A DNA stretch of 64,000 nt from NCBI GenBank assembly GCA_002307375.1, contig NTJI01000002.1:372001-436000 (forward strand). The letters are read 5' to 3'. Under the pieces are notes generated by a model. The model was not told the origin of the DNA and did not search any database. It saw only the letters and a program-made list of their open reading frames with translations. This document shows positions 21,613-25,639 of the stretch, piece after piece. The stretch's first letter is position 1; the number at the start of each line of letters is the position of its first letter. Position numbers and translations under genes: made by a program. The DNA comes from Lysobacteraceae bacterium NML93-0399. GTDB lineage: Bacteria; Pseudomonadota; Gammaproteobacteria; Xanthomonadales; Xanthomonadaceae.

Positions 21613-22701
21613 TCAGTCGACCTGCGCGCTGGCGATGCCGAGCACATCGTCGAGCAGGGCCGCAGCCGTGACGTCCGCCCCTGCGCCCGGCCCCTGGATG
21701 ACCAGCGGTTGGTCGCTGTAGCGGTCGCTGTGGATCGCCACGCGGTTGTCGGTGCCGCTGCCGGCGCACAGCGGATGGTCGGCCGGCAGTGCGCGCAGGC
21801 CGACCCGCGCGCCATGCACATCGAAGCGGCCGACGAAACACAGGCGCAGGCCCTGCGCGGCGGCGTGCGCGCGCCGCGCTTCCAGATCGGCATCGAGCGA
21901 TTCGAGTGCGGCATCGACCGCTGCGTCGTCCGTGCGCGCGAGCGCTTCGGGTACCAGCGACTCGACCTCGACTTCGTGCGCCGGCACTGCGATACCCGAC
22001 GCGCGCGCCAGGATCAGCAACTTGCGCCGCACGTCCTCGCCCGACAGATCGACGCGGGGATCGGGCTCGGTGAAGCCGGCCGCGCGCGCCTGCCGCACCA
22101 GTGCGGAAAACGGCACGCTGCCGTCGTGGCGGCCGAACAGCCAGGCCAGCGAGCCCGACAGCACGCCCTCGATCGCATGGATCCGGTCACCACCGTCGAT
22201 CAGCGCGCGCAGGCTGCGCAGCAGCGGCAATCCGGCGCCGACGGTCGCGCTGTCGCCGTAGCGGCCACCCGTCGCGCGCGCATCGCCGATCGCCAGCGCA
22301 CGTCCCAGGTCTCCCCCGGTCCCGAGCTTGTTGGCCGTGACCACGTGCACGCCGCGAGCCAGCCATTCGGGATGCCAGTCGGCGACGGTCTCGCTGGCGG
22401 TCGCGTCGACGATGATGTCGCCCGGGCGCGGACTTTCGCCCTCCGCCCACGGCGGAAACCCGCCGAGGCGACGTGCGGCGCCACGCGCCTGGGCGAGTGC
22501 AGCATGCAGATCGTCGCCGCCCGACACCTGCGTGCGCGAATTGCACAGCCATGCGACCTCGGGCAGTGCGACGCCCTGCGCGGCCAGACGCGCATAGCGG
22601 GCGACGAAAGCCGAGCCGACCGTGCCGGTGCCCAGCAATGCGAGCCGCGCCGGCACCGGTTGCTTTCGACGCCCCTGACGCAGGGACACGACCGCGCTCA
22701 C
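21613..22701 (-). CDS. hom: Homoserine dehydrogenase, monofunctional
   Basis: Reduces aspartate semialdehyde to homoserine with NAD(P)H. The 362-aa protein has the Rossmann motif ALLGTGTVGSAFV near residues 22-34, then NKLGTGGDLG and the catalytic-domain segment EGVLSGSLAWLFG (family pattern GT.NYIL). It has no aspartokinase domain and no C-terminal ACT domain, so allosteric threonine control is not expected. It overlaps metB by the 4-nt ATGA and is the last gene of the riboswitch-led metX-metB-hom operon. Confidence 0.92.
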   Translation of the reverse strand: MSAVVSLRQGRRKQPVPARLALLGTGTVGSAFVARYARLAAQGVALPEVAWLCNSRTQVSGGDDLHAALAQARGAARRLGGFPPWAEGESPRPGDIIVDATASETVADWHPEWLARGVHVVTANKLGTGGDLGRALAIGDARATGGRYGDSATVGAGLPLLRSLRALIDGGDRIHAIEGVLSGSLAWLFGRHDGSVPFSALVRQARAAGFTEPDPRVDLSGEDVRRKLLILARASGIAVPAHEVEVESLVPEALARTDDAAVDAALESLDADLEARRAHAAAQGLRLCFVGRFDVHGARVGLRALPADHPLCAGSGTDNRVAIHSDRYSDQPLVIQGPGAGADVTAAALLDDVLGIASAQVD

Positions 22702-23939
22702 GCCTCGACTCCGGCGCGCGCCGGGCGCGCGGCGCGCTCGAGCACCGCGGCCGCGCGGGCCAGGCCCGTCTCGAGATCCTCCAGCAGGTCCTCGAGTGCC
22801 TCAATGCCCACCGATACGCGCAGCAGACCGTCGGAAATGCCGGCCGCCGCGCGCGCGGCCGGCGACATCGCCGCGTGCGTCATCGTTGCCGGATGCGCGA
22901 TCAGGCTTTCGACGCCGCCCAGCGATTCGGCCAGCGTAAACTGGGCCAGCCCCTCGACGAAGGCGCGTACCACGTCCTGCTGCGCGACGCCGGGCGCGGC
23001 AGCCAGTTCGAACGAAAGCATCGCGCCGAAGCCGGACTGCTGGCGCGCGGCGATCGCGTGGCCCGGGTGCGCGGCCAGGCCCGGATACAGCACACGCGAC
23101 ACGGCCGGGTGCGCGTCGAGCAGCGCGACCACGCCGGCGGTGTTCTCCTGATGCACGCGCAGTCGCGCATCCAGCGTGCGCAGGCCACGCAGGGTCAGGA
23201 AGCTGTCGAACGGCGTCCCGGTGATGCCGAGCGCATTCGCCCACCACGCGAGCTGCGCGTGCAGCTCGGCATCGCGCGCGATCACCGCACCACCCACGAC
23301 ATCGCTGTGGCCGTTGATGTACTTGGTGGTCGAATGCAGCACCACGTCGGCACCGAATTCGATCGGGCGTTGCAGCGCCGGCGACAGGAAGGTGTTGTCG
23401 ACGACGGCGATCGCGCCGGCCCGGTGTGCGGCCTCGATGACGAAGCGCAGGTCGGTGATGCGCAGCAGCGGATTGGAGGGCGTTTCGATCAGCACCGCCT
23501 TCGGCCGCGTCGCCAGCGCGTCGGCCAGCGCGCGTGGATCCGTCAGATCGGTCGTGACCAGTTCGAAATGGCCCTTGCGCGCCAGCGCATCGAACAGCCG
23601 CCAGCTGCCACCGTAGGCATCGTGCGGCACGACCAGGCGGTCGCCGGGCGTGAGCAGCGCGTTGAGCACCAGCGTGATCGCGGCCATGCCGGTCGGGGTG
23701 ACCACGCCGCCGGCGCCGCCTTCGAGCTCGGCCAGCGCGTCGCCCAGCAGGTCGCGCGTGGGATTGCCGCTGCGGGTGTAGTCGTACTGCCGTTTCTCAC
23801 CGAAGCCGGCAAAGCTGAAATTGCTCGACAGCACCAGCGGTGGCGTGACTGCGCCGAAGGCCGGATCGCGGTCGATGCCGGCGCGCACGGCGCGGGTCGC
23901 CGGTCGGCAGGTGATGGAGTCGGCGGCGTGGATGCTCAT
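22698..23939 (-). CDS. metB: Cystathionine gamma-synthase/O-succinylhomoserine sulfhydrylase-type PLP enzyme
   Basis: A 413-aa Cys/Met-metabolism PLP enzyme. The PLP lysine is Lys206 in VLHSTTKYINGHSDVVGG. YTRSGNPTRDLL (residues about 54-65) and ETPSNPLLRI (about 152-161) are family substrate-binding motifs. In this operon it would condense O-succinylhomoserine with cysteine or sulfide. Which sulfur donor it uses cannot be read from sequence alone. It overlaps metX (23936-23939) and hom (22698-22701) by ATGA. Confidence 0.9.
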   Translation of the reverse strand: MSIHAADSITCRPATRAVRAGIDRDPAFGAVTPPLVLSSNFSFAGFGEKRQYDYTRSGNPTRDLLGDALAELEGGAGGVVTPTGMAAITLVLNALLTPGDRLVVPHDAYGGSWRLFDALARKGHFELVTTDLTDPRALADALATRPKAVLIETPSNPLLRITDLRFVIEAAHRAGAIAVVDNTFLSPALQRPIEFGADVVLHSTTKYINGHSDVVGGAVIARDAELHAQLAWWANALGITGTPFDSFLTLRGLRTLDARLRVHQENTAGVVALLDAHPAVSRVLYPGLAAHPGHAIAARQQSGFGAMLSFELAAAPGVAQQDVVRAFVEGLAQFTLAESLGGVESLIAHPATMTHAAMSPAARAAAGISDGLLRVSVGIEALEDLLEDLETGLARAAAVLERAARPARAGVEA

Positions 23940-24988
23940 GCGGGTTCTCCGGACGTGGGGGCGCGCAGCGCGGCTGCGAGCAGTGCGTCGATGCGGTCGG
24001 TTTCCTTGAGGAAGGCATCGTGTCCATAGGGCGAGCGCAACACGCGCAACTGGCCGTTGGGCCCGAGGCCTTCGAGCAGCGTTACCGCATCCGACAGCGG
24101 CACGATGCGGTCGCCTTCGACTGCGACGACGGTCGTCGGCACCTCGATGTCATGCGGGTCGACGCGGTGCAGATCGATCGATTCCGACAGCCGCAGCCAC
24201 GCGGTGACCGGCGTGTGTGCGACGTAACGAGCGCCCGCGGCGTCGAGGTAGTCCTCGGCGGCCACGCGCACGCGGCCGTTGACGACTTCAGACGGCGCGT
24301 CGAAGCGCGCAGCGAATTCCTCGGGCGTGCGGTAGCTGAGCATCGCGAACTGGCGGGCCAGCGACAGGCCCTGGATCTCGGCGCACTGCAGCTGGCCCAG
24401 CGCCACGGTCTGCCGCTGCAGTGCGCGCCACGCGGCGGCATAGGGATGTGCGCGATGCGCGCCGCTGATCGCGACCAGGCGCTGCAGGCGATCGCCATGG
24501 CGGGCAGCGAACTGCAGCCCGACGAGCGCGCCGTAGGAGTAGCCGACGAAGGCGTGCAGGCATGCGATGCCGAGCGCATCGAGCAGGGCGGCGATCGCAT
24601 CGGCCTGGTCACCGGTGTCGATCGGCGCATCGAGCATGCCGTCCGCGCCGACGAAGTCGAAGGACAACAGCCGAACCTGCGCCGGGTCGAGCGTGCGCCC
24701 GCCCGCGACCAGGCCTTCGAGCCAGCCGGCCGACGCATCGGCGGCGTTGGTGGCCAGATGCCGGTGCGCGGAGATGCCACCGGCGACGAACACCACCGGC
24801 GCACCGCGTGTGCCCTGCAGTTCGTAGCGCAGCGTGACGTGGCGTTCGCCCGCATGGCGCGTCGCCAGCACGACCGCGTGTTCGCCACGCATGGATGCGG
24901 CGTGCGCGGTCTCGACGGGAAACACGGCGCTCCACCCTGATTCGGGTGGCGCTTCGGAACGGTGGACGGCGGTATCGACGAGGCTCAT
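23936..24988 (-). CDS. metX: Homoserine O-succinyltransferase, MetX fold
   Basis: A 350-aa alpha/beta-hydrolase acyltransferase that activates homoserine for methionine synthesis. The nucleophile serine is in FVGYSYGALVGLQFA, and the acid and histidine come in VAVEGDRIVPLSD and SPYGHDAFLKE. MetX-fold enzymes of Xanthomonadaceae are reported to prefer succinyl-CoA over acetyl-CoA, which is my reason for the name. The ATG at 24988 (MSLVDTAVHRS) was chosen over 25018 because the extra ten residues look like leader. It is first in the operon, with a SAM-I riboswitch about 100 bp upstream. Confidence 0.88.
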   Translation of the reverse strand: MSLVDTAVHRSEAPPESGWSAVFPVETAHAASMRGEHAVVLATRHAGERHVTLRYELQGTRGAPVVFVAGGISAHRHLATNAADASAGWLEGLVAGGRTLDPAQVRLLSFDFVGADGMLDAPIDTGDQADAIAALLDALGIACLHAFVGYSYGALVGLQFAARHGDRLQRLVAISGAHRAHPYAAAWRALQRQTVALGQLQCAEIQGLSLARQFAMLSYRTPEEFAARFDAPSEVVNGRVRVAAEDYLDAAGARYVAHTPVTAWLRLSESIDLHRVDPHDIEVPTTVVAVEGDRIVPLSDAVTLLEGLGPNGQLRVLRSPYGHDAFLKETDRIDALLAAALRAPTSGEPA

Positions 24989-25084
24989 GGCGCGGCATTT
25001 CCGGATGGACGGGGCCATCGCGTCGCGCGGGGTATGCCGGAAGCCGCCTCGGGGCGGAACACGCCATCGGCCGGAGCCGATGCC

Positions 25085-25218
25085 GCATCACCATCTTCCG
25101 GTGGACACGCAGGTCCCCGCAGGACTTGGCACCGCGATGGACGCCGCGCGAGGCGCGGATCCCATCAGGTTGCCCCGGCATCAAAGGGCCTGTCCCTCCG
25201 CCGGATCTCGATGGATGC
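25085..25218 (-). promoter_or_regulatory. SAM-I (S-box) riboswitch
   Basis: Read on the minus strand, the leader of metX carries the full S-box core. P1 5' strand is GCATCCATC. GGAGGGACAGGCCC is followed by TTTGATGCCGGGGCAACC, a P3 hairpin GATGG...CCATC enclosing CCGCGC-CTC-GCGCGG, GGTGCCAAGTCCTGC, a P4 with GGAC/GTCC, and the 3' P1 strand GATGGTGATGC. These words match the SAM-I consensus almost position by position. SAM binding should shut down metX-metB-hom. No U-rich terminator follows, so control at translation initiation is more likely than attenuation. Confidence 0.93.
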
Positions 25219-25223
25219 CGCGC

Positions 25224-25252
25224 AGATTGCCAGCGCGCCGCAGCAGTGTCAA
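25224..25252 (-). promoter_or_regulatory. Sigma70 promoter of the metX operon
   Basis: On the minus strand a consensus -35 TTGACA (25252-25247) is followed by exactly 17 bp and a -10 CAATCT (25229-25224). The expected start point near 25217-25218 coincides with the first base of riboswitch P1, which supports both calls. Confidence 0.75.
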
Positions 25253-25639
25253 TCGCTTCATCCGGATGCAGCGATAAATCATTTCATCTGCAACCGGGCC
25301 GCCGCGCGTGTAGCGCGCATCGCATAATCCGGCGATGCGCATTGCCCATCCCGTTGCCGCCCCGTGGGCCGACAGCGCCACTCGTTTCGCGTTCCGCACT
25401 GCTGCCCCAGGTCCGGGCCGAACACATCGCCCGGCTCACGAGCGCCGACCGGATCTGTTCCGCGGACGCGCCTCGGGACGATGCACGGGCACTGCTCGCC
25501 ATCCGGCTCCCACCGGGCAAAAGTTTCAGGGCGTAGGCGGTGGCGCCGACCGACGTCCGGTCGCTCGCAGCGTGCAAGGGGCGGCGTGCAGCGCGATCCG
25601 AGCGCGCTTCGGCCCGACGGACCACACCCGACACCATTG
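25253..25639. other. Intergenic region between metX promoter and M23 gene
   Basis: About 390 bp with no convincing gene. Several open frames cross it on both strands, but none has a recognisable domain or a good ribosome-binding site. The plus-strand frame that reaches the M23 peptidase extends back to 25364, but its N-terminal part looks like translated leader. A promoter for the M23 gene must lie here; I could not place it. Confidence 0.4.

Follow-up and report, generated by a model that had tools for sequence, protein, structure and literature searches.

The element described here is a SAM-I (S-box) S-adenosylmethionine (SAM) riboswitch, accompanied by a palindrome at the promoter, in the leader of the metX-metB-hom operon of Lysobacteraceae bacterium NML93-0399; the window is the whole stretch of 64,000 nucleotides that was analysed (contig NTJI01000002.1, positions 372,001 to 436,000). 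The closest described system is SAM-IXcc, the SAM-I riboswitch of the met operon XC1251-1253 of Xanthomonas campestris (Xcc), which acts mainly on translation (PMC7270179, PMC6230763). In Xcc, SAM brings a translational fusion down by about 98% and its transcriptional counterpart by about 24%, the SAM-bound form has the Shine-Dalgarno (SD) sequence and the AUG locked, and uncharged initiator tRNA binds the anti-SD sequence (PMC7270179). The 5' untranslated region (5'UTR) of the Xcc met operon is 190 nt long by rapid amplification of cDNA ends (5'-RACE), according to the available text of PMC6230763. The authors report an identity above 90% for SAM-IXcc within Xanthomonas and credit Barrick and Breaker (2007) with an earlier prediction (PMC7270179); the available passages of that work (PMC2258182) make no mention of Xanthomonadales and describe SAM-I as sporadic among gammaproteobacteria. 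The riboswitch class, the operon and the mode of action are already known from SAM-IXcc.

For control at the DNA level, a SamR regulon that includes metB, metX2 and hom and is characterised by a 24-bp palindrome was predicted by Leyn et al. (2014; PMC4239095), who, in the portions of the paper available, left the effector of SamR undetermined. A passage of PMC5343134 presents MetJ/MetR and SamR or riboswitches as replacing one another between lineages. From the observed aptamer, operon, conservation and absence of a terminator-like site at the leader, we infer with considerable confidence that a SAM-I riboswitch orthologous to SAM-IXcc represses metX translation at high SAM, and probably that of metB and hom through gene overlaps, with a SamR-type operator as a probable second layer.

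The aptamer and its operon

The Rfam SAM-I model RF00162 matches the reverse strand at 25217-25088 over its full length (1-108) with 60.3 bits against a gathering score of 44.4 (E-value 1.8e-11, cmscan). This is the single Rfam match at the gathering score in the whole window, no other member of the clan was reported at 25217-25088, and the genome-wide count of RF00162 matches is one. The kink-turn and the pseudoknot of the aptamer were assessed only through the covariance score. The aptamer sits in the leader of three SAM/methionine genes, which score above the NCBIfam (metX, metB) and Pfam (hom) cut-offs and overlap by 4 nt at 23936-23939 (metX/metB) and 22698-22701 (metB/hom). The features of the operon, promoter and aptamer are as follows.

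25247 to 25252, reverse strand: -35 element TTGACA, with TTGAC at the same place in relatives
25224 to 25229, reverse strand: weak -10 element CAATCT, from the sequence
25088 to 25217, reverse strand: SAM-I (S-box) aptamer, P1 to P4
25206 to 25214, reverse strand: 5' strand of P1 plus J1/2, CCATCGAGA, a possible partner of the P1 3' strand and of the platform word CGATGG
25091 to 25096, reverse strand: 3' strand of P1, AGATGG, from the RF00162 match and the sequence
23936 to 24988, reverse strand: metX, homoserine O-succinyltransferase MetX (NF006449, 527 bits, cut-off 296, scanned as the longer frame 23936-25018); start at 24988
22698 to 23939, reverse strand: metB, cystathionine gamma-synthase / O-succinylhomoserine (thiol)-lyase (NF006450, 760 bits, cut-off 730)
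21613 to 22701, reverse strand: hom, homoserine dehydrogenase (PF00742, 140.5 bits, cut-off 22.9)

The -35 element (25252-25247) is separated by 17 nt from the -10 element (25229-25224), which is poor; transcription from these elements would begin near the first base of P1. A generic promoter scan called no promoter at the window leader; a transcript start at or near P1 is supported by homology to the mapped 5'UTR of Xcc. From the first base of P1 to the ATG, the window leader measures 229 nt, compared with 189-192 nt in the five Xanthomonas loci measured. No terminator-like site was found in 24940-25400. An earlier note on this DNA, made from the letters alone, had read the locus largely in this way: the full S-box core of the SAM-I class is borne out by the Infernal search with RF00162, its promoter starting near P1 agrees with the position of the two promoter elements and with the 190-nt 5'UTR of Xcc, and the met operon with two overlaps and the probable translational control in the absence of a terminator hold as well.

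The window leader thus resembles SAM-IXcc in the riboswitch class, the gene order metX(metA)-metB-hom, the transcript start at about P1, the absence of a terminator, the AUGGC word beside the anti-SD sequence and the SD sequence that, in the predicted local fold, lies in a stem. It differs in the length of the leader (229 nt versus about 190), in the two GC-rich hairpins, which are of other sequence, in the context of the anti-SD UCC, and in that the AUG lock is not the lowest-energy local fold; initiator-tRNA binding is a feature of Xcc that has been shown in Xcc only (PMC7270179). The aptamer core is shared with Gram-positive S-box leaders, such as that of Bacillus subtilis yitJ; the characterised Gram-positive leaders, however, use Rho-independent terminators (PMC7270179), and the window leader has no terminator-like site. 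We regard the assignment of the window leader as a new member of the published SAM-IXcc type, with predicted SAM binding, as well supported.

RF00162 matches were present in 136 of the 149 sampled genomes of the home family, in 127 of 200 genomes of the order (home family included) and in 10 of 369 genomes of the class, five of these ten lying outside the order. The aptamer was found upstream of metX in all 80 named loci, which are the best 80 of 543 relatives, are biased toward near ones, and count L071 and L102 in spite of record names outside the family; among these 80, the nearest named metX relative is that of Luteimonas terrae (85% identity). In other families of the order, the aptamer precedes metX-metB, or metB directly, in the loci read. 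SAM-I before metX is the rule in the home family and no exception. The core is kept in related metX leaders, as the 80 named loci and the 136 genomes show, and the earlier note's impression that SAM-I is unusual for a gammaproteobacterium does not stand for this group: the riboswitch is widespread in the family and has already been published and functionally dissected in Xanthomonas (PMC7270179, PMC6230763).

Further leaders were taken from 34 of the 136 family genomes with a match, mostly the best-scoring ones, and from 57 (60 places) of the 93 genomes with a match outside the home family in the order survey, to which L038 was added; coverage of the sister family f12 amounts to 17 of the 33 genomes with SAM-I in that survey. 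Aptamers were located by a profile search, with a profile built from 37 of 40 aptamers, in place of a strict regular expression for the core that gave single matches in just 13 of 120 loci; the profile search gave no match in L178 and L179. One record titled Bacillus subtilis SK7B5 (L102, JAHREJ010000001.1) holds a Xanthomonadaceae-type metX with a SAM-I leader and the palindrome described below, and is probably a case of contamination or mislabelling.

Probable repressor operators at the promoter

The promoter of the operon carries a second conserved element.

25252 to 25275, reverse strand: 24-bp palindrome ATCGCTGCATCC/GGATGAAGCGAT, a likely SamR operator predicted by comparison with the SamR regulon of PMC4239095, sharing one base with the -35 element

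Read along the operon (25275-25252), the palindrome is ATCGCTGCATCCGGATGAAGCGAT; 11 of its 12 half-site positions are symmetric, its last base is the first T of TTGACA, and it is the sole site that a genome scan allowing up to 3 mismatches to the consensus returned. Located at -56 to -64 from P1, the form ATC-5-AT-4-AT-5-GAT recurs in 108 of 110 distinct home-family leaders, namely, 32 of 34 unnamed and 76 of 76 named ones (four of the 80 named leaders were removed as duplicates), the exceptions being L006 and L007. It is absent from all 13200 shuffled leaders; here and for the MetJ boxes below, the controls were single-letter shuffles. Outside the home family, the form occurs in 3/3 leaders of f2, 6/6 of f3, 1/1 of f5 and 3/6 of f4, and in none of the 14 leaders of f7, 10 of f9, 17 of f12, 1 of f8, 1 of f10 and 5 from outside the order. 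Three f4 genomes (G151, G162 and G178; L121-L126) possess two SAM-I copies each, before metB and before metX; the metB leaders of all three have the palindrome form and the metX leaders do not.

SamR homologues were found in all 60 genomes searched, and that of the window genome (P0002; G000:C3:75864-76802) combines ArsR and methyltransferase domains; the open reading frame directly after it is presumably metH, as read by eye. All 20 genomes checked, of which 17 belong to the home family (among them that of the window) and three to f12, also have the palindrome form in front of their samR homologue. An exact-pattern scan of 40 family genomes yielded matches in 33, with none for the reversed-pattern control; of the 45 sites, 28 are just upstream of a SAM-I match and 17 elsewhere. 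Nine of the latter were examined: four are near samR, metK, metE (cut by the end of the locus) or a homoserine dehydrogenase gene, one precedes cysG, two have dusB or purU as the nearest recognised gene, with the gene end facing the site, and two are without an assigned gene. The window genome resembles the SamR regulon of Xanthomonadales, as the available part of PMC4239095 presents it, in the 24-bp palindrome with ATC-10 nt-GAT spacing (compared by description, not by motif logo), in the samR homologue beside metH and in the predicted targets metB, hom and metX2. Judging by sequence conservation, SamR likely binds and regulates at 25275-25252, and a SamR-type operator that abuts the -35 element probably adds a second, transcriptional layer.

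Alternatively, the palindrome could be a by-product of promoter conservation rather than an operator, with the riboswitch as the sole SAM control. Two kinds of observations speak for this possibility and against two-tier control. According to the available text of PMC6230763, 52- and 109-bp Xcc promoter fusions do not respond to methionine, the shorter of which would, by our alignment, remove about 5 bp of the palindrome; and SAM-I stands without palindrome and without MetJ boxes in all 24 leaders of f7 (L141-L154, 14 leaders) and f9 (L157-L166, 10 leaders). However, the 24-bp form persists in 108 of the 110 leaders despite varying letters and never arises in the shuffles, the identical form recurs upstream of samR in 20 of 20 genomes, and the exact sites are concentrated upstream of SAM-I (28/45) and, in four of the nine others examined, near samR, metK, metE or a homoserine dehydrogenase gene; we therefore consider the by-product explanation unlikely.

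The sister family f12, perhaps the Rhodanobacteraceae, has a different candidate operator at this position. A search for MetJ found it in all 17 f12 genomes covered and in none of the 43 others, the window genome (G000) among them. Tandem MetJ-like boxes (AGACGTCT) precede the SAM-I aptamer in each of the 17 f12 leaders examined; they match at 13 to 16 of 16 positions and, in nearly all of these leaders, adjoin the -35 element, and 300 letter shuffles of each leader never reach the observed score. By contrast, the best MetJ-box score among 81 home-family leaders, the window's own included, is 10 of 16. f12 leaders have MetJ-like boxes where the window has the palindrome, and the window genome has no MetJ match. 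The view of the earlier note that SAM-I here stands in for MetJ/MetR proved too simple: it holds insofar as the window genome lacks a MetJ match (MetR was not searched for), and fails in that this genome encodes a SamR homologue, with a SamR-like site present at the promoter of the operon, and in that f12 combines MetJ boxes with SAM-I.

The word SamR is absent from the main texts of both Xcc papers (PMC7270179, PMC6230763), and we found no paper that joins SamR or MetJ operators to a SAM-I riboswitch in a literature search for which subscription papers were mostly out of reach and which did not cover supplements. The combination of operator and riboswitch in one leader appears to have gone unremarked before.

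Expression platform and candidate switching strand

Between the aptamer and metX, the following features were distinguished.

25065 to 25082, reverse strand: platform hairpin CATCGGC-TCCG-GCCGATG, paired in the predicted fold
25044 to 25057, reverse strand: platform hairpin CCGCC-CCGA-GGCGG, paired in the predicted fold
25015 to 25020, reverse strand: candidate anti-P1 word CGATGG, overlapping the anti-AUG word AUGGC (25018-25014), by comparison with the Xcc anti-AUG AUGGC of PMC7270179
25007 to 25009, reverse strand: candidate anti-SD UCC, which pairs with GGA 25002-25000 in the predicted local fold
24999 to 25002, reverse strand: Shine-Dalgarno-like GGAA, from the sequence

In the Xcc numbering, the anti-AUG AUGGC occupies 172-176 and the tRNA site is C181C182 (PMC7270179); Xanthomonas loci have ATGGCCGATCC at the matching place, which fits this numbering, and the corresponding stretch of the window is CGATGGCCCCGTCCATCCGGAAATGCCGCGCCATG. 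When SAM is plentiful, the riboswitch would repress metX translation, and the two overlaps would probably pass the repression on to metB and hom. With SAM bound, P1 would close and free the strand around CGATGGC to help lock the ribosome site, by pairing of the anti-SD UCC with GGA and, in many relatives, also of AUGGC with GCCAU; with SAM absent, the P1 5' strand could instead pair with CGATGG and open the lock. The SamR-type operator abutting the -35 element would be a probable second, transcriptional tier.

The P1 5' strand, through its CCATCG, has a second possible partner in the word CGATGG (25020-25015), which repeats the P1 3' strand. A platform with at least 6 bp complementary to its own P1 5' strand was found in 87 of 110 distinct home-family leaders versus 256 of 5500 shuffles. 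When own 5' strands were compared with strands permuted within families, the mean match was 6.627 versus 6.440 (none of 2000 permutations reaching the observed value, n=166) and, without the home family, 5.893 versus 5.686 (9/2000, n=56). This permutation spans nine families of the order and excludes L032-L034, L036, L040 and L177, along with L143 and L156, whose aptamer ends are poorly placed; it supersedes an unrestricted one (without L040, L143, L156 and L177) that pointed in the same direction. The covariation is carried by f1, f4 and f9, and the pairs of P1 5' strand and platform in relatives include CTCATTG-CAATGAG, CTCATTC-GAATGAG and CTCATTT-AAATGAG. As for the lock itself, 114 home-family loci yielded, after removal of duplicates, 78 distinct segments with both the word and a recognised start; 55 of these pair the AUG with the anti-AUG strand, versus 97 of 390 segments with shuffled middles, and the SD core is paired in 65 of the 78, a count without a control.

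Several observations weigh against this scheme. Covariation of P1 with the platform does not appear in f12 (observed value reached by 1962 of 2000 permutations) or f3 (1337/2000) and is weak in f7 (189/2000), and 13 of the 149 family genomes have no RF00162 match at all. In the window taken alone, the 6-bp match of CGATGG is not significant, being reached by 13 of 40 shuffles, and the word has a second copy in another hairpin of the leader (25069-25064). For the 43-nt local segment of the window, the lowest-energy fold pairs the SD sequence and leaves the AUG open, at -12.7 kcal/mol versus -9.7 with AUG/anti-AUG pairing enforced, so that AUGGC and GCCAU, both present in the leader, are unpaired with each other in that fold. 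Longer folds give much the same picture for the free full leader and for the platform alone, our stand-in for the SAM-bound state: the SD bases GG and the A and U of the AUG are mostly paired in either, and so folding by itself predicts no switch; nor does the predicted fold of the free full-length leader show an anti-P1 helix. Taking these points together with the comparison among relatives and the analogy with Xcc, we consider the SD lock and the exchange between P1 and anti-P1 the likely mechanism, and the AUG lock one that may operate in the window species. The two copies of CGATGG (25069-25064 and 25020-25015) could compete as platform strands for the P1 5' strand.

That the riboswitch acts mainly on transcription, by Rho-dependent or hairpin attenuation, is improbable. 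In its favor, transcriptional fusions in Xcc do fall with SAM, by the 24% cited above, and platform hairpins lower reporter activity somewhat (PMC7270179), while the window leader has a long GC-rich platform with two hairpins and its predicted SD pairing is the same with and without the aptamer; against this stand the lack of a terminator-like site at the window leader, the far larger translational effect in Xcc (PMC7270179) and the paired SD core in most family segments. An expression platform formed by GCGGCAT (25086-25080) and ATGCCGC (24998-24992), proposed in the earlier note, is rejected as almost certainly wrong: the exact 7-bp complement exists in the window, whose leader is the only one of the 18 compared with seven pairs, but the conservation check found it kept in none of the 17 relatives (longest match 3 to 6 nt, and 4 in the closest relative, L041), and GCGGCAT recurs in the leader at 25221-25215. 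CGATGG is the better candidate for the switching strand, and such words tend to co-vary with P1, although not in every family.

The predicted full fold also contains a helix between CTTCCGG (25043-25037) and CCGGAAG of the aptamer; L073 and L093, two relatives with a changed aptamer, show no matching change by eye, and this helix is not claimed. The anti-AUG word contains an ATG (25018) that shares the reading frame of metX and lies 10 codons ahead of its start; because the corresponding ATG of the Xanthomonas locus L061 has a spacing of 26 nt and is out of frame, the ATG at 25018 is probably not a start.

Proposed stacking of sensors in one leader

On balance, we favor the view that the met operon of Xanthomonadales is under stacked methionine/SAM sensors, namely, a repressor operator fused to the -35 element (SamR here and in some families, MetJ in f12) and a SAM-I riboswitch that begins at about the first base of the transcript, so that the DNA layer would have been swapped between unrelated repressors while the RNA layer was kept. 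The leaders of f7 and f9 with neither operator indicate that the DNA layer does not extend to the whole order. Such stacking would qualify the replacement picture drawn in the passage of PMC5343134.

The riboswitch extends the characterised Xanthomonas system to Luteimonas and to most of the sampled family, and the generality of the translational and tRNA-sensing mechanism can be tested on this wider set. The adjacent operator would make this leader a natural example of a pathway that is sensed both on DNA and on RNA, with unrelated repressors (SamR, MetJ) apparently placed alike in the promoters of sister families. Such an example would allow one to ask why both sensors are kept for a single signal.
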